Part shown: one piece after another, positions 25,779-41,742 of the stretch | Layout of the letters: every line of letters starts with the position of its first letter | Position numbering within the stretch: position 1 is the first letter of the stretch | Assembly: GCA_902765595.1 (NCBI GenBank) | Contig: CACXAQ010000023.1 | Location: forward strand, 1 to 41,742 | Direction of reading: 5' to 3' | From: Oscillospiraceae bacterium | GTDB lineage: Bacteria; Bacillota; Clostridia; Oscillospirales; Oscillospiraceae | Length of the DNA stretch: 41,742 nt | Made by a program: the position numbers and the translations under genes | The notes under the pieces: generated by a model | Told to the model about the DNA's origin: nothing | Databases searched by the model: none | The model's input: only the letters and a program-made list of their open reading frames with translations

Positions 25779-26978
25779 ATGAGAGACTTAAAGCATCTGC
25801 TCTATTTTGAAAACCTCCTGCAGGAAGCCAACAACGCGCTCATTGCCCAGGCCAAGGAGGAGGGCAAGGTCTGCGTCACCTACACCTGTGAGAACGTCCC
25901 CGAACCCCTGCTAAATCTGGATGGGGCCTTCTCCATCCGCCTGTTCGCCCCCCACACCGGCTCCATGGATATCGCCACTTACTACATGACGAACCTGCTG
26001 TGCGAGCCCAGCCGCGCCCTGCTGGAGCGGGCCATCGAGGGCGGCTTCAACTTCTCCGACTGCGTCATCACCCCCGACGGCTGCACCATGATGAACCGGG
26101 CCGTGGAGAACATGGAGCTGCTGCACACCATGGGGGAGGGCAACCCCAAGTTCTTCCATGAATACATGGAGATCGCCTTCAAAAACAGCGAGACGGACGT
26201 GAAGCTCTCGGTGCTGCAGTGCACCAACCACATCCTCAAGCCCCTGCATGAAAAGTACGGCATCGACATCTCCGACGCCGCCATCCGTGAGGCGGTGGAG
26301 CGGCACAACCGGATCTGCCGGGTGATCCGCGCCATCGGCGAGTACCGCAAGGGTGACAAGCCCCGAATCACCGGCTATGAATTCCATGTGCTGTGCCTGG
26401 CCACCTATGTCTGCCCCAAGCACCTGGTCCTGGACAAGCTGGAGGAGACCCTGGAGGAGCTGAAGACCCGCGAGCCCGACGACAAGCCCTGGCGCGCCAA
26501 GGTGCTGCTGGTGGGCTCCGAGGTGGACGATTCCGGCCTCATCAAGCTCATCGAGGAGCAGGGCGCCCTGGTCTGCTGCGACCGCTTCTGCTTCGGTTCC
26601 TTCCCCGGCCGCTGCGAGATCGTCCTGAACGACCAGGAGGACGCCCTGACCCAGGTCTGCCGCCATTACATCCAGCACTGCCAGTGCCCGCGCATGATGA
26701 GCATGGACAAGGTCTACGGCCGCAAGCAGTATGTGGCGGACCTGGCCAAGGAGTACGGCGCCGACGGCATTATCTACCAGCAGGTCAAGTTCTGCGACCC
26801 CTGGGCCTATGAGCGCACCCTGGGCTCGGCCATGCTGCAGCACGACTTCGGCTATCCGGTCCTTTCCGTTGACCGCCCGTACAACATCGCCTCCGCAGGC
26901 GGCCAGATGCGCACCCGTGTGCAGGCCTTCGTGGAGAGCATCGAGATCAAGAAGATCCAGAAAGGTGGGAAAGCATGA
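25779..26978 (+). CDS. 2-hydroxyacyl-CoA dehydratase / benzoyl-CoA reductase family subunit, HgdB/BcrC-like (module 1)
   Basis: This 399-residue subunit belongs to the family whose two-subunit enzymes carry a [4Fe-4S] cluster per subunit and perform radical dehydration or reduction of CoA esters. Three cysteines fit the cluster ligands: Cys37 in TYTCENVPEPLL, Cys102 in PDGCTMMNR and Cys339 in GIIYQQVKFCDPWAYE. The C-terminus GGQMRTRVQAFVES is the family's signature ending. Length is typical (about 370-430). AGAGGGA precedes the ATG. Its 3' end overlaps the partner gene by 4 bases. It is about half-identical by eye to the module-2 protein at 38113. The substrate cannot be inferred. Confidence 0.88.
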   Translation: MRDLKHLLYFENLLQEANNALIAQAKEEGKVCVTYTCENVPEPLLNLDGAFSIRLFAPHTGSMDIATYYMTNLLCEPSRALLERAIEGGFNFSDCVITPDGCTMMNRAVENMELLHTMGEGNPKFFHEYMEIAFKNSETDVKLSVLQCTNHILKPLHEKYGIDISDAAIREAVERHNRICRVIRAIGEYRKGDKPRITGYEFHVLCLATYVCPKHLVLDKLEETLEELKTREPDDKPWRAKVLLVGSEVDDSGLIKLIEEQGALVCCDRFCFGSFPGRCEIVLNDQEDALTQVCRHYIQHCQCPRMMSMDKVYGRKQYVADLAKEYGADGIIYQQVKFCDPWAYERTLGSAMLQHDFGYPVLSVDRPYNIASAGGQMRTRVQAFVESIEIKKIQKGGKA

Positions 26979-28461
26979 AGACGGTCGAGAAAGTGGTCAA
27001 TCCCGTCAAGCGCGCCGGCGAGCAGTCCCCCGGCAAGATCTATTCCGATAAGCTGAAGGTGCGCGCCCGCAGAGAGTGGCGCGGCGTGAAGGACACCTTC
27101 TATGATTACACCCGCTGGCTCTATCTGATGAGCGTGCTGGGCCGCTTCATCATCGTCCCCCGCAACGTGAAGGGCTTCTTCCGCTATCGCTGGATGATGA
27201 GCTATCTCTTCGTGCCCCACGGCATGGACAAGTTCACCGTGGGATTGCGGGATGAGGCGCTGCGCATCGCCCACACCTCCTTCAACTTCGTCATCGCCGA
27301 CGTGACCCAGGCCATCGCCAACTGCTTCCGGGGCGACCGCCGGGTGGGCAACGACAAGGCCTATTCCGACAAGTGCGTCATCACCGACGAGAACTCCATG
27401 GTCACCTTCATGATGGGCTTCGACAAGGAGAAGGTCCACACCATCCTGCGCGAAGTGCCCACCATGTTCGCCTCCAACATCTTCCACCAGTTCAACGTCA
27501 TGCACTATCTGGACACACCACCTGCGACGGCTCCCTCATGGGCAACGGCATCATCGCCAAGCGCCTGGAGCGGGAATACGGCATCCCCACCTTCCAGCTG
27601 GCCACGCCGCTGCGCCACAAGGAGCCGGACGTGCTGGACTATGCCGCCGATCAGATCAAGCAGGCCATCGCCTTTGTGGAGCAGCACACCGGCGAGAAGT
27701 GGGACTGGGACCGGTACTTTGCCGCCGCCAAGCGGGTCAACTACGCCACCAAGTGCCGCATCGCCCAGCTGGAGATCAACTCCACCCCCTATCCCCAGTT
27801 CTTCGGCGCCGCCTTCTCCCTGTATAACGACACCAACTACATGGGCAACTCCGGCCGCGACCCCAATTTCGTGGGCATCGACCGGAAGCTGCTGGAGCTG
27901 GCCGAGCAGGGCTACAAGGCCAAGCGCATGTATGCCAGGGAGTACCGCCACCGGGCCATCGTCTGGGGCGTGCAGCCCCAGTATGTCATCGACATGCTCT
28001 ACTGGATGGTCCAGTGCTGGGGCGTGATGCCGCTGGCCGACATGCTCTCCATCATCAACACCGACATGATCGCCGACGAGGACACCCCCGCCAACCGGGA
28101 GCAGGCCTATAAGGACATGGCCATGCTGAACATGGAGATGATCATGCGCAACCACACCCACGGTGGCTACAAGGTCCTTCTGAACGAGCTGTGGGAGCTG
28201 TGCGAGAAGATGAACGCCGACATCGTCATGATGTGGGAGCACATGTCCTGCAAGGCCCTCACCGGCATGCACGGCATGTTCGAGGAGCAGGCCCGCGAAC
28301 GGGGCATCCACATCATGTGGGTCTCCCACGACCTGTGCGATCCCCGCGTGTTCACCCGCAGCGCCATCCGCGACCAGGTGAGCAACTACATGCGCACCGT
28401 CATGCGCGAGGAGCCGCTGGATCCGTCCCTGGAGCATATCCCCGACGATGAGGCTTACTAA
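26975..28461 (+). CDS. Partner subunit of module 1, large 2-hydroxyacyl-CoA dehydratase-like protein, frame broken near 27515
   Basis: The partner of the preceding subunit would be about 530 residues once repaired. The first frame runs MKTVEKVVNPVK ... REWRGVKDTFYDYTR ... WMMSYLF to FNVMHYLDT. The second continues CDGSLMGNGIIAKRLEREYG to EEPLDPSLEHIPDDEAY at 28461. Comparison with the module-2 paralogue (YIDA ... CDAS) shows that about 38 codons are missing at the joint. Frame arithmetic requires a loss of 112 or 115 bases. The missing part includes the CPxC cysteines seen in the paralogue. The N-terminal 150 residues are not like HgdA and look specific to this subfamily. ATGA overlap with the upstream gene means coupled translation. 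Confidence 0.8.
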
Positions 28462-28476
28462 AAAAGGAGCGGCAAT

Positions 28477-28644
28477 ATGAAGAAATTGATGAAACTCCCC
28501 CTGATCCTGCTGGGGATCTGCCTGGGCTTCTTCGTGATCACCTTCACGGTCTATATCTTCAACCTGGACATGAAGGCGACCTCTCTGCTGGCGCCTCTGC
28601 TGGAGAAGTGGTACGACCATCTGGAGCACAACCAGTATCTTTGA
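28477..28644 (+). CDS. Small single-span membrane protein of module 1 (55 residues)
   Basis: It follows the partner subunit by 15 bases, with AAAAAGGAG upstream of the ATG. The protein opens MKKLMKLP, has one transmembrane helix (about residues 7-28, LILLGICLGFFVITFTVYIF) and a 27-residue tail with NLDMK, LAPLLEKWYDH and a His/Asn-rich end. The tail motif F-N-L-D-x-K-x(6)-L-x-P-L-L-E-K-x-Y-D is repeated in the module-2 small protein (40922-41140), at the same genomic position. I recognise no named family. Conservation of position and motif in both modules supports a real gene, possibly a membrane tether or electron-transfer scaffold for the dehydratase. That role is inference. Confidence 0.78.
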   Translation: MKKLMKLPLILLGICLGFFVITFTVYIFNLDMKATSLLAPLLEKWYDHLEHNQYL

Positions 28645-28646
28645 CA

Positions 28647-28691
28647 ACAGAAAGGCGCAGTCCTCTTGTCGAGGACTGCGCCTTTCTGTTT
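28647..28691 (+). terminator. Terminator of dehydratase module 1
   Basis: ACAGAAAGGCGCAGTCCTC (28647-28665) pairs without mismatch with GAGGACTGCGCCTTTCTGT (28671-28689) around TTGTC, a 19-bp perfect stem. It starts 3 bases after the small-protein stop, so the module ends here. A second small hairpin GGCGAAAAGC/GCTTTTCGCC follows at 28717-28742. Confidence 0.92.
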
Positions 28692-28780
28692 GAAGGGGGC
28701 ATACAGCCTGCTGCGCGGCGAAAAGCTTTTTCGCTTTTCGCCATCATGTAGTCATTATTCTGTTTGAAAGGAGAGAACGC

Positions 28781-29083
28781 ATGGGGAATCAAAAGCGCGT
28801 CGAACGCGTTGCCGGGATGGAGCGGGCCATGGACGCCGTCTCCGCCGCAACGGACACGCTGGAGCAGGCGCTCCGGCAGTGGGAAGGGGCGCAGCCGGAG
28901 CTGGAAGCGCTGCGGGCCTATTACGGCAGCCCCCAATGGCGGCGGGATCTTGATGCCGACGAGGCGGGAAAGCTCCCGCCGGAGCTGAAGCGGGGCGTCC
29001 TGTCCCAGGACGGGGTCTGGGAATTGCTGGACCGGGTCCGGGACCTGCGTCAGGAGCTGCGGCGCCTGGCGGAAAAAGAATGA
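28781..29083 (+). CDS. DUF4298 family protein
   Basis: This is a 100-residue, highly charged, mostly helical protein. RVERVAGMERAMDAV, LRAYYGSPQWRRDLDADEAG, LPPELKRGVLSQDGVWELL are the blocks I associate with DUF4298, a domain of unknown function in Firmicutes. No membrane segment or catalytic motif is seen. AAAGGAGAG lies 8 bases before the ATG. It stands alone between two terminators. Confidence 0.85.
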   Translation: MGNQKRVERVAGMERAMDAVSAATDTLEQALRQWEGAQPELEALRAYYGSPQWRRDLDADEAGKLPPELKRGVLSQDGVWELLDRVRDLRQELRRLAEKE

Positions 29084-29123
29084 AAAAGGACCGGCGTGAG
29101 GATGTTCTCACGCCGGTCCTTTT
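29084..29123. terminator. Bidirectional terminator between DUF4298 and pgi
   Basis: AAAAGGACCGGCGTGAG (29084-29100) and CTCACGCCGGTCCTTTT (29107-29123) form a perfect 17-bp stem with A and T runs on either side, suited to both convergent genes. Confidence 0.92.
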
Positions 29124-29131
29124 GATCGGCC

Positions 29132-30409
29132 TCAGACCGCGCCGGGCTTGCCCAGCATGCGGAACATGTTCTTCTTGTAGGCCTCCACGCCGGGCTGGTC
29201 AAAGGGATTGACGCCGGACATGTAGCCGGAGATGGCGCAGGCCACCTCAAAGAAGCAGACCAGGGCGGCAAAGCCCTCCTCATTGCGGGCGGGGGCCTCG
29301 ATCACCAGGTTGGGCACGCCCCCGGCCACATGGGCCTCCCGCACGGCGTCGGCCGCAATGCGGTTGATGTCGGACAGATCCTTGCCCACCAGGTAGTTGA
29401 GCCCGTCGGCGTTCTGCTCGTCATAGGGGAAGGGATATTCATTGCGGCTGCGGGAAAAGCGCACGATGGTCTCCATCATGTTCCGGGGACCGGCCTGGAT
29501 GAACTGACCCATGGAGTGCAGGTCCGCGGTGAATTCCACGCTGGCCGGGAAGATGCCCTTGCCGTCCTTGCCCTCGCTCTCGCCGAAGAGCTGCTTCCAC
29601 CACTCGCCCATGAAGCGGAAGCTGGGCTCATAGCAGCCCAGGATCTCGATGTCAAAGTTCTTGCCGTAAAGATGCTGCCGGGCGGCGGCATAACGCCAGG
29701 CGGGGTTCTCGGGGGAGCGCAGGTCCAGGGCGTTCAGCTCCGCGATGGCGGCGTCGATGACCAGGCGCACGTTGATGCCGGCCACGGCCATGGGCAGCAG
29801 GCCCACCGCGCTGAGCACGCTGAAGCGGCCGCCCACGTCGTCGGGCACCACAAAGCTCTCCCAGCCGTGGTCGTTGGCCAGGGACTTGAGAGCGCCGCGC
29901 TTTGCGTCGGTGGTGGCGAAGATGTGCTCGTCGGCCTTGTCGCCGTACTTCTTCTGCAGCAGCTCCCGGAAGATGCGGAAGGCGGCGGCGGGCTCCAGAG
30001 TGGTGCCGGACTTGGAGATCACGTTCACGTCAAAGTCCAGGTCGCCCAGCTGGGTCAGGGTGTCGCACAGCGCGTCGGCCGAGAGGGTGTTGCCCACGAA
30101 AAAGACCCGGGGGTCGTCCTTGCCGGGCACGGGCTTTAAGAGCTCGATGGCGCCGCGGGCGCCCAGATAGGACCCGCCGATGCCGATGACCACCAGGGCC
30201 TTGGAGCGGCTGCGGATGCGCTCGGCCGCGGCCACGATGCGGTCCAGCTCATTCTCCTTGATGTGCTGGGGAAGGCTGCCCCAGCCGGTGAAGTCGGCGC
30301 CCAGACCGGTGCCGCTGGAGAGCGTCTCGTGGGCCAGAGCGGCCAGCTTATAGTCAGGACCGGCGGCGGTAAAGAATTTCTTCGCGCCGGATAGATCAAC
30401 GTGTACCAT
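29132..30409 (-). CDS. pgi: Glucose-6-phosphate isomerase
   Basis: This 425-residue cytosolic glycolytic enzyme interconverts glucose-6-phosphate and fructose-6-phosphate. The SIS-domain phosphate-binding segments VIGIGGSYLGARGA (about residue 72) and VNVISKSGTTLEPAAAFRI (about 130), the catalytic glutamate region HSMGQFIQAG and the C-terminal REAHVAGGVPNLVIE are visible. It is on the short side of the Firmicutes form (about 430-450). ATG 30409 with AAGGAGG 4 bases upstream is preferred over 30427, which lies outside the Shine-Dalgarno window. Confidence 0.96.
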   Translation of the reverse strand: MVHVDLSGAKKFFTAAGPDYKLAALAHETLSSGTGLGADFTGWGSLPQHIKENELDRIVAAAERIRSRSKALVVIGIGGSYLGARGAIELLKPVPGKDDPRVFFVGNTLSADALCDTLTQLGDLDFDVNVISKSGTTLEPAAAFRIFRELLQKKYGDKADEHIFATTDAKRGALKSLANDHGWESFVVPDDVGGRFSVLSAVGLLPMAVAGINVRLVIDAAIAELNALDLRSPENPAWRYAAARQHLYGKNFDIEILGCYEPSFRFMGEWWKQLFGESEGKDGKGIFPASVEFTADLHSMGQFIQAGPRNMMETIVRFSRSRNEYPFPYDEQNADGLNYLVGKDLSDINRIAADAVREAHVAGGVPNLVIEAPARNEEGFAALVCFFEVACAISGYMSGVNPFDQPGVEAYKKNMFRMLGKPGAV

Positions 30410-30444
30410 GTTGCCTCCTTGATGCAAGAAAGATTTTCGGCAAC

Positions 30445-30472
30445 ATTATACCCTATTTTCCCGGGATTGCAA
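30445..30472 (-). promoter_or_regulatory. Sigma-A promoter of pgi
   Basis: On the minus strand, TTGCAA (30472-30467) and a perfect TATAAT (30450-30445) are separated by 16 bp, about 35 bases before the ATG. Confidence 0.82.
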
Positions 30473-30477
30473 GAGAA

Positions 30478-30508
30478 ACCGGTCCGCGTACCGAAAGGTG
30501 CGCAGACC
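30478..30508 (-). terminator. Weak terminator-like stem after dacF
   Basis: On the minus strand, GGTCTGCGCACC and GGTACGCGGACC pair imperfectly around TTTC just after the carboxypeptidase stop. A pyrimidine tract (GGTTTCTCTT) follows. The mismatches make it less certain than the others. Confidence 0.5.
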
Positions 30509-30515
30509 GCTTCCG

Positions 30516-31658
30516 TTACAGCCCGATCAGACTGCCCGCCAGCTTTTTGAAAAGGCCCCAGAAGCCGATGCGTGCCACGCTCGCTCCCGCCAGGATCGGC
30601 ACCTCCGCCACGGTCTCGCCCCCCAGCGTCACCGTCAGGGTGCCCACCTGCTGCCCCTTTGCCACCGGGGCGGAGAGCAGCTCCGGCAGGGACAGGGCGT
30701 ACTCCGCCGCGGCGCCGCCCTTGGGCACCAGGGCCCGGCTCTCTCCGCCGTAGGTCAGGGGGACGCAGGCCTGCTGCCCCATCTCCACCGGCAGCTCCGG
30801 CAGGTCCGCCTCCGGCCGCAGAGAGCAGAGGGAGAAGTTGGCAAAGGCATAGTTGAGGAGGGTGGTGGCGTCGGCGTTGCGGCTGTCGGCGGACTCTCCG
30901 TGCATGATGACCGCGATGAAGGCCACGCCCTCCCGCTCCGCCGTGGCGGCCAGACAGTACATGGCCTTGGAGGTGAAGCCGGTCTTGAGCCCGGTGCAGC
31001 CGGGATACCAGTACACCAGCTTGTTGGTGTTGGCCAGCTCGAAGCTCCCGCCCCGGATACTGTCCATCCAGATGGTGGTGTAGTCCTTGATGAGGGGGTG
31101 CTTCATCAGCTCCCGGGAGAGCAGGGCGACGTCCCTGGCGCTGGTATAGTGGTCCTCGTCGTCAAAGAGCCCCGTGCAGTTGGTAAAATGGGTGTTGACG
31201 AGGCCCAGCTCCTCCGCCCGGCGGTTCATCCGTTCCACGAAGAGCTCCTCCGTGCCGCTGAGATACTCGGCCATGGCCACGGCGCAGTCGTTGGCGGAGA
31301 CCACGGCGATGCATTTGAGCATTTCATCCACGCTCATCTGCTCGCCCTCCTCCAGATACACGCAGCTTCCCCCAAAGGAGGCGGCCCGCCGGCTGGCGGT
31401 CACCAGATCCTCCTTTCGGATCTTCCCGGCCTCCAGATCCTCCGTGATGAGCAGCAGGGTCATCACCTTGGTGACGCTGGCCGGCGTCATGCGCTCGTCC
31501 GCGTTTTTTTCGTACAGCACGGTCCCGGTCTCCTGCTCCATCAAAATGGCGGAGGGCGCTTCGATGGGCATGGCTCCGTCCCGCAGGGGCTCCCGCCCAA
31601 ACACGCGCCCCGGCAGCAGCGCGGCAAACAACAGCAGCATACAAAGCGTTCGTTTCAT
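30516..31658 (-). CDS. dacF: D-alanyl-D-alanine carboxypeptidase (DacF/PBP5 family)
   Basis: This 380-residue penicillin-binding protein trims pentapeptide side chains of peptidoglycan outside the membrane. A signal peptide (MKRTLCMLLLFAALLPGRVFG) is followed by the active-site SxxK in ASVTKVM, the SAND motif (SxN) and LKTGFTSKA (KTG). A C-terminal beta domain and an amphipathic terminal helix (IGFWGLFKKLAGSLIGL) would anchor it at the membrane surface. Spore-forming relatives use such enzymes in vegetative wall or cortex maturation; vegetative versus sporulation expression cannot be told from the promoter region. Confidence 0.93.
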   Translation of the reverse strand: MKRTLCMLLLFAALLPGRVFGREPLRDGAMPIEAPSAILMEQETGTVLYEKNADERMTPASVTKVMTLLLITEDLEAGKIRKEDLVTASRRAASFGGSCVYLEEGEQMSVDEMLKCIAVVSANDCAVAMAEYLSGTEELFVERMNRRAEELGLVNTHFTNCTGLFDDEDHYTSARDVALLSRELMKHPLIKDYTTIWMDSIRGGSFELANTNKLVYWYPGCTGLKTGFTSKAMYCLAATAEREGVAFIAVIMHGESADSRNADATTLLNYAFANFSLCSLRPEADLPELPVEMGQQACVPLTYGGESRALVPKGGAAAEYALSLPELLSAPVAKGQQVGTLTVTLGGETVAEVPILAGASVARIGFWGLFKKLAGSLIGL

Positions 31659-32067
31659 AGTCTCCTCCCGGTCTTCGGTTTTGTCACCAATTTATGCGCC
31701 GGGGCCGGGGAACATGAGCAGGCGGTGCGCTTCGACAGAGGTTGACAAAATTATTTATGCTTCGACAAAACAGCAGGAATGGGAAAGAGAAGGAGATGGG
31801 GAAAAAAGGGCGGGAATCCGGGGGTTTTAAACAGTTTCCACAGACTTTTCCACAAGGATCTTTCCCGCATTTTCGGAACTATTTGCCGAAAACAGTTTCC
31901 ATAACGGCAAAAAAGCGCCCATCGGAGAGAGCCCTTCCGCAGCCCGGGAACGGCGCGCGGGAGACCGGGAAGGAAAAATTCATAAATCCCGACTTGACGG
32001 GTGCCGGGGGCAATAGTAAAATATATTAAATATAAAGTGAGGCGCGCCTTTGTGAAGGAGGACGGAC
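31659..32067. other. Intergenic region rich in direct and inverted repeats
   Basis: No gene is seen in these 409 bases between divergent dacF and the permease gene. They contain GCTTCGACA twice (31729-31737 and 31759-31767), AAACAGTTTCCA twice (31829-31840 and 31890-31901, 61 bases apart), TTTTCCACA at 31846-31854 between them, and an inverted repeat TTTTCGG-N9-CCGAAAA (31870-31892). These are candidate regulator sites. The permease promoter lies at the right end. Confidence 0.5.
31994..32022 (+). promoter_or_regulatory. Sigma-A promoter of the AI-2E family permease gene
   Basis: TTGACG (31994-31999) and TAAAAT (32017-32022) are 17 bp apart. The ATG follows 45 bases downstream with AAGGAGG in between. 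Confidence 0.82.
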
Positions 32068-33357
32068 ATGAGACGGCAATTTCGCTGGGATAAAAAATAT
32101 CTCTATTGGGGGATCACGGCCTTTTGCGTGATCGCCTGCGCGATCCTGTTCTATATGGCGCTGCGTTTTCTGCCGGACCTGCGCAAGGCGATCGCGGACT
32201 TGTCCAGGATCCTCAGCCCCTTCATCTGGGGCTTTGTCATCACCTATCTGATCGCCCCGCTGATGAAGGTGCTGGAAAAGAAGGTCTTCGGCCCCTTCTG
32301 CCGCAGACTGTTCCGAAAGAATAAGAAGAGCGACGGGCGCAAGCTGGCCCGGGGCCTCTCGGTGGCGGTGGCGGAGCTGGTCCTGGTGGCGGTGCTGGTG
32401 GGCCTGGTCTCGCTGATCCTGCCGAACCTGGTGGCCAACATCATGAAGGTCATCGACAACCGGCAGATCTATTACGACGCCGTGACCAAGCTCATTGAGG
32501 ACTTCCAGATCTCCCACCCCCAGATCTACGACAATGTGGGCCAGACCCTCAACACCATCACCGGAGACATCAACTCCTGGGTAGAGCGGATGCTGCCCAA
32601 CGTGACCAACTATCTGGGCAGCTTTATGCAGAGCGCCTATGTGGTGGTGCGGGGCGTGTATAACCTGATCATCGGCATCGTGGTCTCCATCTACGTGCTG
32701 AGCGATCTGGAGCGCTTCACCGCCGCCCTCCGCCGCTGGATCTACAGCCTGTTCTCCCTGGAGACGGCGGAAAAGCTGCGGGAGGCCGTGGCCTTCACGG
32801 ACCGGACCTTCATGGGCTTCATCACCGGAAAGCTCCTGGATTCGGCCATCATCGGCCTGATCTGCTATATCGGCTGCGCGATCCTCCGCATCCCGGACGC
32901 GCTGCTGGTCAGCGCCATCGTCGGCATTACCAATATCATTCCCTTCTTCGGCCCCTTTATCGGCGCCGTGCCCTGCGCGTTCTTCATCCTGATGACCGAT
33001 CCCGTCAAGTGCCTGATCTTCATCGTCTTCGTCATCATCCTCCAGCAGATCGACGGCAATATCATCGGCCCGAAGATCTTGGGCAGCTCCATCGGCATCA
33101 CCGGCTTCTGGGTGCTCTTCGCCATCGTGGTGGGCGCCGGCCTCTTCGGCTTCGGCGGGATGCTGCTGGGCGTGCCGTTCTTCGTGGTGATCTATACCTT
33201 CGTCAACAGCCGGGTGGAGGCCAGATTAAAAAAGAGCGATCTCCCGGAGGAGACCGCTGCTTATCAGGATCTGGATCATATCGACCCGGTGACGCGCCAG
33301 CCGGTGAAAAAGGGCAGACCGGAGGAGAGCCCTGCCGGAGAGACACCTCAGGCGTGA
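32068..33357 (+). CDS. AI-2E family transporter (permease PerM/TqsA-like)
   Basis: This 429-residue polytopic membrane protein has seven to eight predicted helices. Landmarks are YWGITAFCVIACAILFYMA (first helix), the central amphipathic region with NVGQTLNTITGDINSWVERM, and the conserved C-terminal half IGLICYIGCAILRIPDALL ... GITNIIPFFGPFIGAVPCAF ... QQIDGNIIGPKILGSSIGI. Family members export varied small solutes or ions (some Na+/H+ antiport); the AI-2 name does not prove autoinducer transport. The C-terminal 60 residues are charged and cytosolic. Its 3' end overlaps the convergent desulfurase gene by 10 bases. Confidence 0.9.
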   Translation: MRRQFRWDKKYLYWGITAFCVIACAILFYMALRFLPDLRKAIADLSRILSPFIWGFVITYLIAPLMKVLEKKVFGPFCRRLFRKNKKSDGRKLARGLSVAVAELVLVAVLVGLVSLILPNLVANIMKVIDNRQIYYDAVTKLIEDFQISHPQIYDNVGQTLNTITGDINSWVERMLPNVTNYLGSFMQSAYVVVRGVYNLIIGIVVSIYVLSDLERFTAALRRWIYSLFSLETAEKLREAVAFTDRTFMGFITGKLLDSAIIGLICYIGCAILRIPDALLVSAIVGITNIIPFFGPFIGAVPCAFFILMTDPVKCLIFIVFVIILQQIDGNIIGPKILGSSIGITGFWVLFAIVVGAGLFGFGGMLLGVPFFVVIYTFVNSRVEARLKKSDLPEETAAYQDLDHIDPVTRQPVKKGRPEESPAGETPQA

Positions 33358-34478: not shown

Positions 34479-34507
34479 ATTCAGTCCCTCTCGCAAGGAG
34501 ATTTTTT

Positions 34508-35788
34508 ATGAGATACATTATATCCACTCTCGGCTGCAAGGTCAACCAGTTTGAGACCCAGGCCATGGAGGCCCGGCTCCAGGAGCACGGGCATCTGCCC
34601 GCCGCCCCCGGCGAGATGGCGGACGCGGTGATCGTCAACACCTGCGCCGTCACCGCCGAGAGCGGGCGCAAATCCCGCCAGACCATCCGCCGCCTGCGGG
34701 ACGAAAACCCCGGCGCGGTGGTGGCGGTCTGCGGCTGCTACGCCCAGCTGAGCCCCGAGGACGCCGAGGAGATCGGCGCCGGCGTGCTTTTCGGCGCCGC
34801 TGACCGGATGGACTTCGTGGCGGCGGTGGAGAAGGCCGTGGCGGAGGGGGAGCGGACCCGGCGCATCGACGAGCCCTTCCTGCGCCGGAGCCTGGAAAAG
34901 CTGCCCGCGGGGGCCATGGACGGCCGCACCCGGGCCATGCTGAAGATCCAGGACGGCTGCGTCAACTTCTGCACCTACTGCATCATCCCCTACACCCGGG
35001 GCCGCCTGCGGAGCCTGCCTCTGGCCGACGCCGCCGCCGAGACGGCGCGCATCCGGCAGGAGGGCTACCGGGAGCTGGTGCTCACCGGCATCGAGGTGGC
35101 CTCCTATGGGGTGGACCTGCCGGGCAGACCCGGCCTTGCCGACGTGATCGAGGCGGTGGCGGCCGAGGCGGGGGACATGCGCATCCGCCTGGGTTCCCTG
35201 GAGCCCACGGTGATCACCGAGGATTTCTGCCGCCGCACCGCGGCCACCGGCAAGCTCTGCCGGCACTTCCACCTGTCCCTCCAGTCCGGCTGCGACCGGA
35301 CCCTGAAAGCCATGAACCGCAAATATGACACCGCCTTCTTCTACGAGCGGACGGCGCTGCTGCGCCGGTATTTCCCCGGCTGCGCCCTGACCTGCGACCT
35401 GATCACCGGCTTTCCCGGGGAGACCGAGACCGACCAGGCGGAGACCATGGCCTTTATCGAGAAGTGCGCCTTTTCGGATATGCACATCTTCCCCTATTCC
35501 CGCCGCCCCGGCACCCCGGCGGACGCCATGCCGGAGCAGTGCACCAACGCGGTGAAGGCGCGGCGGGCCCACGAGGCCCAGGCGACGGCGGAGCGGATGC
35601 ACCGGGCTTTCCTGGAGGAGAGCGTGGGGCAGATCCTTCCGGTGCTCTTCGAGACCGCGGAGGGCGGCAGCGTGGGCCACAGCGACACCTACCTGCTGGT
35701 AAAGGTGCCGGAGGAAAACCTGCAGGGCCAGCTCCGGCAGGTGCGCATCACCGGCGTGGACGGGGACCGGCTCCAGGGAGAAATATGA
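34508..35788 (+). CDS. mtaB: tRNA t6A37 methylthiotransferase MtaB
   Basis: This 426-residue radical-SAM enzyme converts t6A37 to ms2t6A37 in tRNAs decoding ANN codons. The N-terminal MTTase domain has STLGCKVNQFETQ with the first cluster cysteine, NTCAVTAESGRKSRQ and VCGCYAQLSPED. The radical SAM motif is CVNFCTYCIIPYTRGRLRS (CxxxCxxC). GLxxCDLITGFPGE and SDMHIFPYSRRPGTPA are typical, and a TRAM-like end follows. The gene starts 29 bases from the divergent desulfurase gene with AAGGAG upstream. The wording STLGCKVNQ separates MtaB from MiaB. Confidence 0.95.
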   Translation: MRYIISTLGCKVNQFETQAMEARLQEHGHLPAAPGEMADAVIVNTCAVTAESGRKSRQTIRRLRDENPGAVVAVCGCYAQLSPEDAEEIGAGVLFGAADRMDFVAAVEKAVAEGERTRRIDEPFLRRSLEKLPAGAMDGRTRAMLKIQDGCVNFCTYCIIPYTRGRLRSLPLADAAAETARIRQEGYRELVLTGIEVASYGVDLPGRPGLADVIEAVAAEAGDMRIRLGSLEPTVITEDFCRRTAATGKLCRHFHLSLQSGCDRTLKAMNRKYDTAFFYERTALLRRYFPGCALTCDLITGFPGETETDQAETMAFIEKCAFSDMHIFPYSRRPGTPADAMPEQCTNAVKARRAHEAQATAERMHRAFLEESVGQILPVLFETAEGGSVGHSDTYLLVKVPEENLQGQLRQVRITGVDGDRLQGEI

Positions 35789-35802
35789 GGTGACACAGGC
35801 AT

Positions 35803-35953
35803 GCCTCCTCCTGTGGGGGAGGCGCCGAGCAAAGCGAGGCGGTAGGGGATATGCCCTTCATTTACCAGCGCCCCGCCGGAAGCATATGGTTGACCAACGG
35901 TACCCCTCAGTCTGGCCTGACGGCCAGCCAGCTACCCTTAGGCAGGGGAGCCT
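35803..35953. repeat. Palindromic intergenic repeat upstream of the nucleosidase-like gene
   Basis: It begins GCCTCCTCCTGTGGGGGAGG and ends CTACCCTTAGGCAGGGGAGC. The right half (ACCCCTCAGTC ... CAGCT ... GGCAGGGGAGCCTA) matches the repeat at 20676-20801, while the centre differs (ATATGC/GCATAT pair, GTCTGGCCTGACGGCCAG). It is the second full copy of this family in the window. Confidence 0.75.
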
Positions 35954-35971
35954 ATAAGGAAGGAGATCAAA

Positions 35972-36649
35972 ATGAAAAAGATCGGCATGCTGGTGGCGGT
36001 GGAGATGGACGCGGTGCTGCGCCGTTACGGCACGGCGGAGCGGGTGGAGACACGCCACGGCTTTGAGATGCACCAGTACAACATGAACGGTTACGAGCTC
36101 TATGTGCTGCGCTCCGGCGCAGGGGAGATCGCCGCCGCCGCTGCCGCCCAGATGCTCATCGACCGCTATGAGGTGGAGATGATCGTGAACTTCGGCGTGG
36201 TGGGCGGCCTCACCGAGGAGATGGCCCAGACCAAAACCTGCGTGGTGGAGCGGGTGGTCCACTATGACTTTGACACCACCGCCTATGATAAATGCCTGCC
36301 CGGACAGTACATGGGCTACCCGGACGAGTACCTGCGCCCCAGCCCCGTCCTGATCGACAAGGCCGTGACCCTCTTCCCGGAGCTCAGGCGCGTCACCTGC
36401 GCCTCCGGGGACAAGTTCGTGGACGGCCGGGAAGCCAAGAGCGCCCTGCATGAGCGCTGGGGCGCGGACATCTGCGAGATGGAGGCCGCCGCCGTGGTGC
36501 TGACCTGTGACCGGAGCGGGGTGCCCTGTCTGCTCATCAAGACCGTGTCCGACGGTCTGACCCAGGGGGGAGAGGACTTCGGCACCGCCCTGGGGCACAC
36601 CTCCGCCCTGTGCCTGGAGGTGGCGGACCGGATCATCCGGGAACTGTAA
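35972..36649 (+). CDS. MTA/SAH nucleosidase-like nucleoside phosphorylase superfamily protein
   Basis: This 225-residue protein has the PNP/UDP phosphorylase fold. MKKIGMLVAVEMDAVLRRYG opens it like MTA/SAH nucleosidases. IVNFGVVGGL replaces the usual NxGxAGG phosphate/ribose loop. ASGDKFVDG, ICEMEAAAVV (the substrate-binding E-M-E) and the catalytic Asp in KTVSDG match the nucleosidase branch. It would hydrolyse 5'-methylthioadenosine or S-adenosylhomocysteine, or a related purine nucleoside. The loop substitution leaves specificity open, so no symbol is given. AAGGAGATC is upstream; alaX-like follows after 15 bases. Confidence 0.82.
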   Translation: MKKIGMLVAVEMDAVLRRYGTAERVETRHGFEMHQYNMNGYELYVLRSGAGEIAAAAAAQMLIDRYEVEMIVNFGVVGGLTEEMAQTKTCVVERVVHYDFDTTAYDKCLPGQYMGYPDEYLRPSPVLIDKAVTLFPELRRVTCASGDKFVDGREAKSALHERWGADICEMEAAAVVLTCDRSGVPCLLIKTVSDGLTQGGEDFGTALGHTSALCLEVADRIIREL

Positions 36650-36664
36650 GAGGGGAGACACAAC

Positions 36665-37819
36665 ATGACCGAGAAACTCTATTATCTGGACAGCCACCTG
36701 CGGGAATTCACCGCTGTCGTGCGCTCCTGCGAGGAGCAGAAGGGCGGCTGGGCGGTCACCCTGGACCGGACCGCCTTTTTCCCCGAGGGCGGCGGCCAGC
36801 CGGCCGACACCGGCACCATCGGGGACGCCCGGGTGCTGGACGTGCACGAAAAGAACGGCCGAATCCTCCACAGCGTGGACCGGCCCCTGACCGCGGGGGA
36901 GAGCTATCCCTGCGCCCTGGACTGGGAGCAGCGGCTCCGCCGGATGCAGAACCACTCCGGCGAGCACGTCGTCTCCGGCCTCATCTACCGGGAGCACGGC
37001 TTTGACAATGTGGGCTTTCATATGGGGGCCGACTGTATGACCATGGACTACTCGGGCGAGCTGAGCTGGGAAGAGCTGATGCGCATCGAGCAGCTGGCCA
37101 ATGAGACGGTGCGGGCGGACCTGCCCCTGCACATCTGGTTTCCCGAGGGGGAGGAGCTGGCCCGGCTCATTTACCGCAGCAAGCTGGACCTGACCGAGAA
37201 CGTGCGCATCGTGGAGATCCCGGGGGTGGACCGCTGCGCCTGCTGCGCGCCCCATGTGGACCGGACCGGCGAGGTGGGCCTCATCAAGATCCTCACGGCC
37301 GAGCGGCACCGGGGCGGCGTGCGCATCACGGCCCTCTGCGGCATGGACGCCGTGGAGGAGGCCCGCCGCCGGCAGGAGAGCGTTACGGCCATCTCCGGCC
37401 TTCTCAGCGTCAAGCGGGACCAGGTGGTCCCGGCGGTGGAGCGGCAGCTGGAGCAGCAGGCCCGGCAGAAGGAGCGCGTCGCCCAGCTGGGGCTGGAGCT
37501 GGCCCGGCTGCGGGCGGAGAGCATGGCGCCCACCGAGGGGAACCTGGCGGTCTTCGACAGCGTGCTGGACGAGCCGGCCCTGCGGGAGCTGGTGAACCTG
37601 CTGATGGACAAATGCGCTGTGGCGGCGGCCTTCTCCGGCAGCGACAGCGAGGGCTGGCGCTACATCATCGGCAGCCGGACCGTGGACCTGCGCGCAAAGG
37701 CCCGGGCCCTCAACGCCGGCATCGGCGGACGGGGCGGCGGCAGCCCCGAGATGATCCAGGGACGGGCAGGTTTCGACGCCGAGACCATCCGCGTCTTCCT
37801 CCGGGATTGGAGGCCCTAA
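36665..37819 (+). CDS. Alanyl-tRNA editing protein, AlaX-L type with DHHA1 domain
   Basis: This 384-residue free-standing editing protein hydrolyses Ser- or Gly-mischarged tRNA-Ala. RTAFFPEGGGQPADTG and the zinc site HSGEHVVSGLIY (HxxxH) with CACCAPHVDRTGEVG (CxxxH) form the editing domain homologous to AlaRS. A central coiled coil (QLEQQARQKERVAQLGLELA) leads to a C-terminal DHHA1 domain with GGRGGGSPEMIQG. Length fits the long AlaX class. It follows the nucleosidase-like gene in the same direction and ends in a strong terminator. Confidence 0.93.
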   Translation: MTEKLYYLDSHLREFTAVVRSCEEQKGGWAVTLDRTAFFPEGGGQPADTGTIGDARVLDVHEKNGRILHSVDRPLTAGESYPCALDWEQRLRRMQNHSGEHVVSGLIYREHGFDNVGFHMGADCMTMDYSGELSWEELMRIEQLANETVRADLPLHIWFPEGEELARLIYRSKLDLTENVRIVEIPGVDRCACCAPHVDRTGEVGLIKILTAERHRGGVRITALCGMDAVEEARRRQESVTAISGLLSVKRDQVVPAVERQLEQQARQKERVAQLGLELARLRAESMAPTEGNLAVFDSVLDEPALRELVNLLMDKCAVAAAFSGSDSEGWRYIIGSRTVDLRAKARALNAGIGGRGGGSPEMIQGRAGFDAETIRVFLRDWRP

Positions 37820-37833
37820 AAGAGCATAAGCAT

Positions 37834-37878
37834 CGCCGGGATCCGGAGGCTGTTTGCCCCGGATCCCGGCGTTTTTTT
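37834..37878 (+). terminator. Terminator after the alanyl-tRNA editing gene
   Basis: CGCCGGGATCCGG (37834-37846) pairs with CCGGATCCCGGCG (37859-37871), followed by seven T. Confidence 0.93.
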
Positions 37879-37938
37879 GCCTATGCACGGGGCCGCCAAA
37901 ATCTTGGCCGGAAATTTGTGCAGTATTGCTATTTTTTA

Positions 37939-37963
37939 GACAAACGAAAAATGTTTGTATAAC
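37939..37963. promoter_or_regulatory. Operator-like palindrome upstream of dehydratase module 2
   Basis: GACAAACG-AAAAA-TGTTTGTATAAC contains ACAAAC/GTTTGT arms (37941-37946 and 37953-37958), about 55 bases upstream of the module-2 -35 box. It is a possible repressor or activator site; no known consensus is claimed. Confidence 0.4.
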
Positions 37964-38013
37964 AAAATCGGCTGTTTTGGGAACTTTTCCGGCAGCATTT
38001 CGGGAAATTAAAT

Positions 38014-38042
38014 TTGACAATGTTCTGACGCTTCGATATAAT
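38014..38042 (+). promoter_or_regulatory. Perfect sigma-A promoter of dehydratase module 2
   Basis: TTGACA (38014-38019) and TATAAT (38037-38042) match consensus at all twelve positions with a 17-bp spacer. The leader of about 65 bases contains GGGCACAGA/TCTGCGCCC (38057-38082), a hairpin with one mismatch just before the ribosome binding site. Confidence 0.92.
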
Positions 38043-38112
38043 ACCAAGCGTGAAAGTGGGCACAGATGCCTTTCTGCGCCCAAAAACAGGAAAGAAATTG
38101 GGAGGGTTATCT

Positions 38113-39324
38113 GTGAGAGATCTCAAACATCTGATCTACTTTGAGAATCTGCTTCAGGAGGCCAACAACGACCTGGTCAAACAGGCCAAAGCCGAGGGTA
38201 AGCGCGCCATCGGCTACACCTGCTACTTCATGCCTGAGGTACTTCTCGACCTGCCCGGCTGCTTCTCCGTCCGTCTGAGAGCGCCGCGCTGCACTTCCCC
38301 CGACATCGCCACCTATTACCTGTCCGGCCGTGTCTGCCACTATGCCCGCTCCCTGATGGAGCGTGCCCTGGAGGGCGGATACAACTTCCTGGACGCCCAG
38401 ATGGCCACCGAGACCTGCACCGCCACCTGCCGCTTCCAGGAGCACCTGCAGCAGAAGCACCTGGACTCTGTCGACGACATGCGCATCATCGACAATGACG
38501 ACTTCTTCTGCGAGTTCACCGACATCCCGTTCAAAAACAACGAGAACAGCTATGCCCACTTCGAGACCCAGCTGCGCGCCCACGTGCTGGCGCCCCTGCA
38601 CGAGCACTTCGGCATCGACGTGTCCGACGAGGCGATCCTGAAGGCCATCGAGCAGCACAACGAGGTCTGCCGCCTCATCAACGAGATCGGCGACTACCGC
38701 AAGCTGGATAACCCCACCATCACCGGTTATGAGTTCCACGTGATCCAGCTGGTGAGCCTGGTCTGCCCCAAGGAGCTGATCCTGCCCTACCTGCGGGAGA
38801 CTGCCGAAGAGATGAAGACCCGCGAGCCCGACGACAAGAAGAACTTCCGCTGCAAGGTGGTTCTGGCCGGCTCCGAGAACGACGACCCCGACTTCACCAA
38901 GCTGATCGAGAGCTGCGGCGCCCTGGTCGTGTGCGACCGCTTCTGCTACGGCGCGGTGGAGAGCCGCGTCCCCATCGTGGTGGAGGAGGGCAAGAGCCCC
39001 CTGCGCGCCATTGCCGAGCACTACCTGAAGACCTCCAACTGCCCGCGCTTCATGCCCCAGGACGAGATGCGCGCCCGCAAGCAGAGGATCGCGAACCTGG
39101 CCAAGGAGTATCATGCCGACGGCGTGATCCTGGCCTCCAACAAGTTCTGCGAGTACTGGAGCTATGAGCGCGTCATCGACACCTTCATCCTCAAGCGCGA
39201 CTTCGGCCTGCCTGTCTGCTCCATCGAGAAGGAGTACATCAACTCCGCCTCCGGCCAGCTGCGCACCCGTTTCCAGGCCTTCGTCGAGAGTGTTGAGATC
39301 AAACACATCCAGGAGGGAAAGTAA
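38113..39324 (+). CDS. 2-hydroxyacyl-CoA dehydratase / benzoyl-CoA reductase family subunit, HgdB/BcrC-like (module 2)
   Basis: This 403-residue paralogue of the protein at 25779 keeps the same cysteines: Cys37 in GYTCYFMPEVLL, Cys102 in ETCTATC and Cys346 in ASNKFCEYWSYE. The same signature ending, SGQLRTRFQAFVES, is present. Start is GTG 38113 with GGGAGGG 6 bases upstream; the upstream in-frame GTG at 38050 falls 8 bases after the -10 box. Both paralogues begin MRDLKHLxYFENLLQEAN, so duplication covers the full gene. Codon use is strongly biased and the promoter is perfect, so high expression is likely. The partner gene follows after one base. Confidence 0.9.
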   Translation: MRDLKHLIYFENLLQEANNDLVKQAKAEGKRAIGYTCYFMPEVLLDLPGCFSVRLRAPRCTSPDIATYYLSGRVCHYARSLMERALEGGYNFLDAQMATETCTATCRFQEHLQQKHLDSVDDMRIIDNDDFFCEFTDIPFKNNENSYAHFETQLRAHVLAPLHEHFGIDVSDEAILKAIEQHNEVCRLINEIGDYRKLDNPTITGYEFHVIQLVSLVCPKELILPYLRETAEEMKTREPDDKKNFRCKVVLAGSENDDPDFTKLIESCGALVVCDRFCYGAVESRVPIVVEEGKSPLRAIAEHYLKTSNCPRFMPQDEMRARKQRIANLAKEYHADGVILASNKFCEYWSYERVIDTFILKRDFGLPVCSIEKEYINSASGQLRTRFQAFVESVEIKHIQEGK

Positions 39325-39325
39325 G

Positions 39326-40906
39326 ATGGCTAACAAAATCACAAAAGCACTGAAGGATTTCTGGTACGGCAAGCCTCACACCGCTGAGGAAGGCGGCCGC
39401 CGCCTGGGTGAGCTGTATGAGGACAAGACCGGCCTTCTCAAGCACAGAGAGTGGCGCGGCGTCAAGGACACCATGTACTACATGTACATGATCTGGGGCT
39501 ACAACTACCTCCACATGGTCACCGATATCCTCAAGTACTCCAATAACCCCATCGATTTCTTGAAGGGTACCTGGCGCTACCGCTGGATGGGCCAGACCTA
39601 CCTTCCCGTTATCCACTGGTTCGAGCGCGGCCTGCAGGGCATGCGGGGCGAGGCTCTGGCGGCCTCCGCCTGGCACTACCGCGCCATGGTCAGCGCCTCC
39701 ATTCAGCAGATCTGCAACTTCTTCAACGCCGACACCCGGCTCCACGGCGGCAAGGAGAACGAAGCCTACCGGACCAGCATGTATGCCAACGAGACCACCT
39801 GCGGCACCCTGTTCTATCCCTGGATGGACGCCGGCTACCGCTACATCCCGGTGGAGATGATCCCCTACTTCGTCACCTGCCACGTGAACAGCCACACCGT
39901 GCTCAACTACATCGACGCCGTCCAGTCCATCGGCCTGCCCGGCGACCCCTGTGCCAGGCCGAGGCCGGCATCTTCGTGCAGGACGACGTTCCCGATTCCG
40001 CTCCCTTCCTCATCACCTGCAACGAGGCCTGCGACGCTTCCGTCTCCACCTCCACCCTGCAGGACTGGTTCTTCAACAAGCCCCTCTTTGCCCTGCCCAT
40101 CCCCATGCAGTTTGACGACCCCCTGGTCAAGAAGTACTGCATGAACGAGATCGAGGCGTGCTGGAAGTTCATCGAGAAGCAGACCGGTGTTCCCTTCAAC
40201 TGGGAATCCATGGTCAAGCGCCTGGAGAAGCAGAACAAGCTCCAGCGCGACGAATGGGAGAAGTGGGAAGTCGCCGGCAAGACCGATTACTACCCGGTCA
40301 ACGGCGTTGCCCAGGCTCTGTTCCGCATCTTCTCCACCCAGTACGGCATCCAGGGCGACTTCTGGGATGAGGCCAGCGAGAAGGTCAAGAAGATCATGTA
40401 CAAGTGCGTACAGAGTCATCGCCTGGTCCTGTGCTCCGCTGTACTTCTCCAACTGGTGCACCTGGGCCTACAACTGCTGGGGCCTGAACTGCATCATCAA
40501 CATGGACTCCCTCATGTTCGACATGGAGATCCGCACCGACTCCTACGAGAACATGCTGGAAGACGTAGCCACCTACCACATGTGGGCGCCCATGCGCCGC
40601 ATGGCCGTCGGCGGCATGCACCACATCTTCGAGCTGTGGGAGTACATGGAGAAGTTCAACTGCGACATGGTCGCCATGTACGACCAGCTCCAGTGCAAGG
40701 GCATGCAGGGCGTCCACGGTCTGTTTGAGGACGAGTTCCGCAAGAGAAACGTGAACGCTTTCTGGATCCCCCACGCGCTGCCTGACTGCCGCACCGTGTC
40801 CCGCGCCGAGATCCGCCGCCAGATCAACGACTACATGACCACCGTCATGCACGAAGAGCCGCTGGATCCCTCGCTGCTGGACTTCGACGATTCCATGACC
40901 TGGTAA
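39326..40906 (+). CDS. Partner subunit of module 2, large 2-hydroxyacyl-CoA dehydratase-like protein, frame broken near 39952 and 40403
   Basis: The paralogue of 26975-28461 would be about 530 residues if repaired. It shares REWRGVKDT, WRYRWM, a CDxS segment and the ending HEEPLDPSL. Segment 1 runs to SIGLPGDPC, segment 2 begins CQAEAGIFVQDDVPDSAPF and runs to KIMYK, segment 3 begins AYRVIAWSCAPLYFSNW and runs to 40906. The first break fits loss of one copy of a CCCCTGT tandem pair (7 bases). The second fits loss of one GC unit from a GCGCG run (2 bases) or a 1-base insertion. Cys-rich stretches (PGDPC, CQAE, LITCNEACDAS) may bind an Fe-S cluster. Both breaks are in strongly conserved sequence, so sequencing or assembly error is possible. 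Confidence 0.8.
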
Positions 40907-40921
40907 GAGGAGGATCACAAA

Positions 40922-41140
40922 ATGAAAAAAATCAAGTGCCGCATCGTCAAGTTCTGCCTGAAGTTCCTGGGCATTTTCCTGCTGGCGAACATCGCGCTCT
41001 TCGTCGTCTTCTTCTTCGACCTGGACGGCAAGCTCATGTTCAACGTGGTGGAGCCCTTCCTGAAGAAGCACTACGACAACATGCCGCGCAAGGACACCCT
41101 GAAGGAAGCCTATGACATGGGCAAGTTCCCCAAGTACTGA
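40922..41140 (+). CDS. Small single-span membrane protein of module 2 (72 residues)
   Basis: It lies 15 bases after the partner subunit, exactly as in module 1, with AGAGGAGG before the ATG. A basic N-terminus (MKKIKCRIVKFCLKF) is followed by one transmembrane helix (about residues 14-33, ending ALFVVFFF) and a soluble tail with DLDGK, VVEPFLKKHYDNMPRKD and EAYDMGKFPKY. The tail motif F-[ND]-L-D-x-K ... P-[LF]-L-[EK]-K-x-Y-D matches the 55-residue protein at 28477. The N-in, C-out orientation is suggested by the positive-inside rule. No known family is recognised; a membrane anchor or partner of the dehydratase is inferred from linkage only. Confidence 0.85.
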   Translation: MKKIKCRIVKFCLKFLGIFLLANIALFVVFFFDLDGKLMFNVVEPFLKKHYDNMPRKDTLKEAYDMGKFPKY

Positions 41141-41175: not shown

Positions 41176-41742
41176 ATGAAGTATTTCGGCGGTTGTGACG
41201 TAGGATCCACCTACACGAAGGCAGTCATTCTGGACGAGAACGGCAAGATGGTTGCCGATACCACCATTCGCAGCAAGATCAATTCCGAGCAGAGCGCCAT
41301 CGCGGCGATGGACGAGGTTCTGAGCAAGGTCGGGCTGAAGAGCAGCAAGGACCTGGAGTACCTGATCGGCACGGGCTACGGCCGCAACAAGGTTCCCTTT
41401 GCCGACGAGAACATCTCCGAGATCAGCTGCCACGCCATGGGCGTGCACGTGGTGCGCTGCCGGTACCGGCCGCTTCTTTGAGGCCATGGCCCGCAGCTTT
41501 GAGCTGAGCCTGCCGGAGTTCAGCAAGCTGTCCCTGACGGCGAAGAACGTGATCCCCATCACGGCTCAGTGCACGGTGTTTGCCGAGTCCGAGGTCATCA
41601 CCCTGGTGGGCGAAGGCAAGGCCACCGATGAGATCGCCGCCGGTATCGAGATGGCGGTTGCCAAGCGCTGCTTCGTCATGGCGAAGAAGGCCGGCGCCAC
41701 GGACAGCATCACGCTGACGGGCGGCTGCGCGAAGAACGACGG
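41176..41742 (+). CDS. BadF/BadG/HgdC-type acyl-CoA dehydratase activase, frame broken near 41453 and cut by window end
   Basis: This ASKHA-fold ATPase family uses ATP and a [4Fe-4S] cluster at its dimer interface to inject an electron into the dehydratase. MKYFGGCDVGSTYTKAVILD gives the phosphate-1 loop, and GTGYGRNKVPFADENISEIS leads into CHAMG, holding one of the two cluster cysteines. After HVV the family's DIGGQD-containing stretch (roughly 35 codons) is missing. Homology resumes one frame over at CAAGTGRFFEAMARSFEL, with the second cysteine, and continues to the window end. TTGGAGG lies upstream of ATG 41176. The gene follows the module-2 small protein by 35 bases without a terminator. 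Confidence 0.85.

Follow-up and report, generated by a model that had tools for sequence, protein, structure and literature searches.

The contig CACXAQ010000023.1 of an Oscillospiraceae bacterium (assembly GCA_902765595.1), the full 41,742 nt of which are referred to here as the window, contains two paralogous three-gene modules, at 25779-28644 and 38113-41140. Each encodes a protein of the HGD-D family (subunit 1), a homologous partner subunit and a tiny single-helix membrane protein. We put at about 0.65 the probability that each module is the catalytic core of a two-cluster reductase that is driven by ATP, is tethered to the membrane and represents a three-subunit form within the benzoyl-CoA reductase/double-cubane family; the cluster types, the ATP coupling and the membrane anchoring are properties that we infer for the modules. 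Such modules would add a membrane subunit to this family, in which the enzymes driven by ATP attain very low redox potentials, and no description of the system was found in the open-licence literature searched.

The initial annotation of this DNA had described a common gene order, a 15-base gap upstream of the tiny gene and homology at all three positions. The open reading frames (ORFs) of the window agree with this on each count: subunit 1, partner and tiny gene follow one another in both modules, the gaps lie at 28462-28476 and 40907-40921, and the subunit 1 pair is 53% identical and the tiny pair 36%. The modules had also been put forward as a candidate radical enzyme system; the conserved three-part unit stands, but the reaction is more likely to be that of a stoichiometric ATP-driven reductase than of a dehydratase-like enzyme, because subunit 1 appears to be of the double-cubane/BzdN type. 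The genome bin to which the window belongs, as contig C23, comprises 2.14 Mb in 61 contigs and is 84% complete.

Subunit 1 is of the double-cubane type by sequence

Subunit 1 is intact in both modules, being 399 aa long in module 1 (25779-26978, on the forward strand, as are all the window features given below) and 403 aa long, with a GTG start, in module 2 (38113-39324). The two copies match PF06050 (HGD-D) at 272 and 302 bits, exceeding the curated cut-off of 28.4. In a profile alignment with BzdN (8s02_B), cysteines are found in all six columns of [8Fe-9S] ligands, as C37, C75, C102, C271, C303 and C339 in module 1 and C37, C75, C102, C278, C310 and C346 in module 2; the double-cubane ligands of BzdN itself are Cys36, 73, 100, 263, 293 and 327, as listed in the relevant passage of PMC11971306. 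The three family cysteines recognised initially (37/102/339 and 37/102/346) are amongst these, but the double-cubane columns hold six cysteines rather than three. Across 112 subunit 1 rows, two of which are from the window itself, the columns are filled in 111, 111, 111, 112, 112 and 112 cases, the exception (L036) being a sequence that starts at a contig edge. In the dehydratase subunit HadC, by contrast, the C37 and C271 columns are without cysteine.

Structures were modelled as single chains only. The model of subunit 1 from module 1 (predicted local distance difference test, pLDDT, 84.5) had its best match in BzdN (E 2.3e-22, template modelling score 0.84), followed by DCCP and then HadC. 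The best NCBIfam match of both copies is the DCCP model NF040772, to which they score 124 and 140 bits where 350 are required; the scores are at most 90 bits against 454 for BzdN, and 77 and 74 bits against 700 for HadC. Judged on its sequence, subunit 1 is of the double-cubane/BzdN type.

The partner carries three cluster cysteines and an extended N terminus

The partner is present in both modules, as first annotated, but neither copy is a single open frame in the window. That of module 1 consists of a 5' piece (26975-27514), the frame of which is open to 28027 although homology extends only to 27514, and a 3' piece in a different frame (27515-28461; PF06050, 102 bits). That of module 2 consists of a first piece (39326-39955), a middle piece in a different frame (39958-40404; PF06050, 52 bits for 39976-40400) and a last piece in the first frame again (40406-40906), which at 28.1 bits lies just under the PF06050 cut-off. 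Of the two N-terminal motifs originally singled out, REWRGVKDT occurs in the first piece of both partners, whereas WRYRWM is found in module 2 only, module 1 having FRYRWM.

Three cysteines of the partner (C182, C211 and C453 in the numbering of L018) are present in 128 of 128 rows, and by alignment with MbdO they occupy the places of [4Fe-4S] ligands. The model of the L018 partner (pLDDT 82.3, predicted template modelling score 0.86) matches HadB first, then BzdO and MbdO. Compared with Cys95 of BzdO, the first ligand cysteine is displaced by about 87 residues towards the C terminus; the additional N-terminal part has predicted helices at 30-51, 54-62, 64-79 and 85-112, and near-invariant REW and YRW motifs. 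Insertion of these helices into the membrane is unsupported on average (mean 17-residue hydrophobic peak 0.95), with single sequences reaching 1.8. A partner squarely inside a characterised dehydratase clade would, by the initial annotation, have refuted the system; the partner instead falls outside the models of characterised dehydratases and reductases, the best NCBIfam match of the window pieces being 20 bits against the BzdO cut-off of 449. Since neither subunit reaches an equivalog cut-off, the modules are best regarded, at the level of sequence, as a separate branch of the benzoyl-CoA reductase/2-hydroxyacyl-CoA dehydratase/DCCP family with a third subunit.

A conserved tiny gene accompanies the partner

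The third gene encodes a protein of 55 aa in module 1 (28477-28644; E 1.1e-26 to the tiny-family profile in a search of its own genome) and of 72 aa in module 2 (40922-41140; E 1.2e-21), neither of which matches any Pfam or NCBIfam model at E 0.001. Amongst 116 such proteins the core is F-x-x-Y-x-x-N-L-D-x-K, with the lysine in 100%, the aspartate and leucine in 98%, the tyrosine in 96%, the phenylalanine in 95% and the asparagine in 94%; a later aspartate is found in 94%. The helix of these proteins is strongly hydrophobic, with 2.5 as its mean 17-residue peak, and we infer that the tiny protein is a dedicated third subunit, tethering the soluble pair to the membrane.

Tabulation of the DNA downstream of partner homologues, as suggested at the outset, reveals a short membrane ORF no more than 2.2 kb 3' of 118 of the 128 distinct full-length partners, mostly at 100 nt or less: 88 are within 100 nt, eight are at 100-350 nt and 22 are farther, the activase gene sitting between partner and tiny gene in several of these far-spaced loci. 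Eight of the ten remaining partners reach the end of their locus within 1.5 kb. In L053 the tiny gene is 3.3 kb away on the 3' side, and L023 has none in its locus. Subunit 1 is upstream of 110 of the 128 partners.

The tiny-family profile was first built from ORFs picked by position, and the whole-genome query holds 13 such proteins. Searched against whole genomes without regard to position, it matches the same 28 of 79 Butyrivibrio genomes of the Su6 genus as does the partner; most of them have two or three tiny genes, their number going with that of the partners. Within a sample of 150 genomes from the bacterium's own family, the partner profile matches 14 and the tiny profile 13 of those, together with a marginal match in G062 (E 6.6e-6). 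The partner matches in G003 are weaker (best E 2.3e-29) and lie in frames of 431-448 aa, with no tiny-profile match in that genome; they look like a different kind of HGD-D protein. In a phylum-wide sample of 398 genomes the partner was found only in the genome of the window, and is hence rare. Near-universal presence beside the partner and whole-genome co-occurrence lead us to reject a chance small ORF, and the conserved three-part unit working with an activase, as predicted from the window, recurs in relatives apart from one locus (L023).

The named loci referred to below are the best 80 of 471 relatives matching one query, and are biased to the group of orthologues to which module 1 belongs (group A). 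By their titles, 31 are from ruminant or horse gut, 26 bear RUG, RUI, SIG or SUG codes, which we take to denote collections from the rumen or gut, and 11 are Butyrivibrio for which no source is given; the remaining 12 include CAG:103, from human gut.

Comparison with known systems and proposed mechanism

The modules resemble the class I benzoyl-CoA reductases BzdNO(PQ) and MbdONPQ (PDB 8s02, 9g87 and 9gai) in having two homologous subunits with the same folds, the six [8Fe-9S] cysteines in one subunit and the three [4Fe-4S] cysteines in the other, and a BadF/BadG-type activase. They differ from BzdNO and MbdON in the membrane subunit, the additional residues of the partner and a serine at the place of His131; moreover, their scores are far under the family cut-offs and no benzoate pathway was seen among the ten neighbours scanned. 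With DCCP (PDB 6eno and 7yyl) they have in common the six-cysteine double-cubane pattern of subunit 1. However, DCCP is a homodimer with one double cubane per chain, according to the passage of PMC11971306 that describes it, whereas the modules encode a heteromer, in which the partner has three family cysteines rather than six, as well as a membrane protein, and they do not reach the DCCP cut-off. The (R)-2-hydroxyisocaproyl-CoA dehydratase HadBC (PDB 3o3m) has the same fold and two-subunit plan, with HadB the top fold match of the partner, but subunit 1 has cysteines in two columns where HadC has none. We know of no membrane subunit in HadBC.

In the proposed reductase, a donor flavoprotein or ferredoxin would reduce the activase, which would be common to the modules and would use ATP hydrolysis to drive single low-potential electrons into the [8Fe-9S] double cubane of subunit 1. 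From there the electrons would pass to an aqua-[4Fe-4S] cluster of the partner, at which a hydrogen-atom transfer and a second electron would hydrogenate a hard-to-reduce substrate, in the manner suggested for benzoyl-CoA reductase of class I. The tiny helix would keep the pair at the membrane, beside a hydrophobic substrate or product. The first electron-transfer steps are modelled on the BzdNO scheme, as set out in part of PMC11971306.

A number of observations weigh against such a reductase. The group A partner of L023 (9557-10200 region) is intact and has room downstream, and there is no tiny gene in its 17.5-kb locus. The place of the catalytic His131 of BzdO (Cys128+3) is occupied by a serine (S214) in at least 97% of partners, and given this replacement the active-site chemistry may differ from that of BzdO. 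An activase adjoins or lies inside the unit in 12 of the 80 named loci, there being none in the sampled stretch of the other 68; likewise, no oxidoreductase is found in the sampled stretch of 52. In such loci the activase or the donor would have to be supplied from another part of the genome. No TIGR00241 activase is found at E 1e-20 in CAG:103 and G109, which counts against the reading unless these absences are assembly gaps at a repeat, as we presume. Finally, the tiny protein may instead serve in maturation.

Candidate substrates

Unsaturated lipids are weakly suggested as the substrate. A reductase of low potential that is held at the membrane would be suited to a fatty acid whose double bond is isolated, and the hydrogenation of unsaturated fatty acids, such as vaccenate to stearate, is the leading candidate, if a tentative and unproven one, because genomes with the modules concentrate in the clade of strain B316 of B. 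proteoclasticus, the stearate-forming species. Of the 79 Butyrivibrio genomes, 66 were placed in a gyrB tree, 21 of the 28 positives among them; 20 of these 21 fall into one well-supported clade of 36 genomes (100/99) with B316, the genome of which holds modules of types C and D; the outlier, G186, is on an odd long branch. Sixteen genomes of the clade are without the unit, 12 of them forming one branch. The presence of the modules changes seven times on the tree, as opposed to a mean of 18.1 when labels were shuffled, and none of 500 shuffles gave as low a number. Su6 is counted as a stearate former, although the literature passages did not show this.

A tree of 40 markers reported in a section of PMC8627218 assigns the module carriers FCS014, MC2021, NC2007, Su6, VCB2006 and XPD2006 to the B. 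proteoclasticus group, whilst MC2021 and VCB2006 are placed outside it by 16S in the same source; CB08, a further cultured module-bearing Butyrivibrio, is absent from the Table 1 passage of that paper. B. proteoclasticus is described as reducing fatty acids through to stearate, the B. fibrisolvens cluster as ending at vaccenate, and most ruminal biohydrogenating bacteria as uncultured, in passages of PMC2914790, PMC4901502, PMC3305423 and PMC2836310. No open-licence paper was found on 2-hydroxyacyl-CoA dehydratase and Butyrivibrio, and none of the matches listed in that literature connects 2-hydroxyglutaryl-CoA dehydratase, benzoyl-CoA reductase or a double cubane to B. proteoclasticus or to biohydrogenation. 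To our knowledge, no gene has been reported for the vaccenate-to-stearate step that ends rumen biohydrogenation.

On this basis the modules might be membrane-anchored, ATP-driven alkene hydrogenases for isolated double bonds of fatty acids, including that of vaccenate, with the paralogues serving different double-bond positions or chain types and drawing on one common activase. This is possible rather than probable, because the correlation lies within one clade, such that any other trait of the clade would fit equally. Were it true, the modules would be the first gene candidate for the conversion of vaccenic to stearic acid in ruminants, a step that helps set the saturation of milk and meat fat. 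An old question becomes testable in cultured strains, and the tiny gene provides a short marker for finding such bacteria in metagenomes.

There is a real prospect that the same reductase acts not on a fatty acid, but on another hydrophobic compound from plant feed or the host (phytol, terpenoids, sterols or bile pigments), or on a small molecule as tested with DCCP. The OYE flavoprotein on the module C side of B316 is nearest to the models for bilirubin reductase (365 bits) and BaiCD (364 bits), without reaching the cut-off of either, and several paralogous modules are found per genome, with 1 to 10 partner matches, some of them pieces, in the 15 genomes reached via the named loci. The correlation with B. 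proteoclasticus is compatible with this too; however, no direct evidence points to any such substrate.

Alternative functions

It is rather unlikely that the tiny protein, instead of being a subunit of the reductase, assists the clusters in their maturation or membrane insertion. Maturation-like genes do recur in the vicinity, HypA being found in about 21, a CdhC-like protein in about 10 and a CooC-like protein in about nine of the 80 named loci, and they hint at nickel or at the maturation of special clusters. Yet no tiny gene serves two modules: the genome of the window has five of each, and in most Butyrivibrio genomes the tiny genes keep pace with the partners, whereas a helper could be common to the modules, as the activase is.

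A ring reductase like class I benzoyl-CoA reductase, acting on an aromatic CoA ester and with a membrane subunit added, is improbable. The six-cysteine pattern and fold of BzdN, and the three-cysteine pattern and fold of BzdO and MbdO, are what such an enzyme would have. However, the modules score hundreds of bits under the BzdN, BzdO, BcrB and BcrC cut-offs, the ten neighbours scanned include no gene for the degradation of aromatics, the serine replaces His131, and a soluble CoA ester would make a membrane anchor needless.

An ordinary 2-hydroxyacyl-CoA dehydratase (of the HgdAB, FldBC or HadBC type), requiring electrons in catalytic amounts only and with the tiny gene incidental, can be given very little credence: it belongs to the same superfamily, and HadC and HadB align with subunit 1 and the partner, HadB being the top fold match of the latter, but all six cysteines are kept here, including those of the C37 and C271 columns that HadC lacks, the score to HadC is 77 bits when 700 are needed, and the co-occurrence counts show that the tiny gene is not incidental.

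Paralogous groups and neighbouring genes

In a tree of subunit 1, made by a quick method from 64 of the 112 rows, module 1 falls into the 27-row group A (Shimodaira-Hasegawa-like approximate likelihood ratio test support 100) and module 2 into the 8-row group D (99), together with the D copies of B316 and Su6. A copy on contig C19 of the same genome is in group B (5 rows), and the C-type copies make up a fourth group of 21 rows. As modules 1 and 2 are in separate, supported groups, they appear to be ancient systems that have long persisted in parallel, and not the products of a recent duplication. B316, Su6 and MC2021 have one stand-alone activase each, plus a tandem pair in one frame of ~1420 aa elsewhere; the activase is therefore common to several modules. 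The 1.9-Mb genome of CAG:103 (L039, G157) has ten partner matches, at least two of which are pieces of one gene on a contig of that genome (C46).

The C and D modules of B316 are divergently oriented. The C side comprises a CooC-like ATPase, subunit 1, the partner, the activase, the tiny gene, a CdhC-like protein and the OYE/BaiCD-like flavoprotein, and the D side subunit 1, the partner, the tiny gene and a small His-rich protein. The last of these, 3' of the D-type tiny gene (L158 1007-1288 and L159 15750-15986, both on the forward strand), has no Pfam or NCBIfam match. The CdhC-like protein, which corresponds to part of the acetyl-CoA synthase beta subunit, is ~245 aa long and lies 3' of the activase and tiny gene in C-type modules, with copies at L159 6529-7254 (reverse strand), L016 523-1263 (forward) and L020 2479-3228 (reverse).

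An NAD/FAD/Fe-S oxidoreductase of ~925 aa is encoded in 28 of the 80 named loci, and as a nearby electron donor it fits a stoichiometric electron demand. In architecture it resembles IsrA of Acetobacterium wieringae, a putative isoprene reductase according to part of PMC10134865, with an NAD/FAD core, 4Fe-4S clusters and often a HypA neighbour, and perhaps also in its N-terminal cysteines. A regular expression for the cysteine motif matched two of the 28 loci, and six N-terminal cysteines were seen by eye in three further copies (L087, L023 and L052). Unlike the loci here, the isr operon as described in that source is without an HGD-D module. The OYE flavoprotein was discounted as a recurrent neighbour: the query matches 27 of the 80 loci, nearly all of them weak cross-matches to the IsrA-like gene, and these were left uncounted.

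Disrupted genes in the window

The activase noted initially beside the modules does begin 3' of module 2 (41176-41742; BadF/BadG type, PF01869), where it is both broken and cut by the contig end, being 104 nt shorter than that of L101, with the loss near 41451. The frame of partner 1 changes at 27514/27515, where L171, from the genome of RUG180 (93-95% DNA identity), is 112 nt longer; that of partner 2 changes near 39955 and reverts near 40405. The final 99 bases of the window (41644-41742) are the first 99 of contigs C31 and C10 (L016 and L017), and hence the activase is a repeat in its own genome. Beyond the overlap, C31 carries the end of an activase, a further tiny gene and a CdhC-like gene.

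The breaks in both partners and the activase probably represent assembly damage, given the losses of ~100 nt and the overlap at the contig end, although they may be real pseudogenes. A programmed frameshift, which breaks in both paralogues bring to mind, is not favoured; intact single-frame partners are usual in relatives, the genome of the window itself has them on C25 and C19, and the lengths lost from partner 1 and the activase, like the contig end common to three contigs, speak for assembly. The three-gene unit is intact in relatives. Five tiny genes were found in the genome of the window, on C25, C23 (two), C19 and C31. The partner on C24 is truncated by the contig end, and subunit 1 of the same module (L015 3123-4208) has a frame change near its 3' end, which brings the number of damaged or truncated modules in the bin to three out of five. 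The C19 module has divergent neighbours (L014 907-3653, reverse strand) that encode an AMP-binding protein resembling fatty-acid ligases, a carrier protein of the phosphopantetheine type and a 309-aa protein of unknown function.

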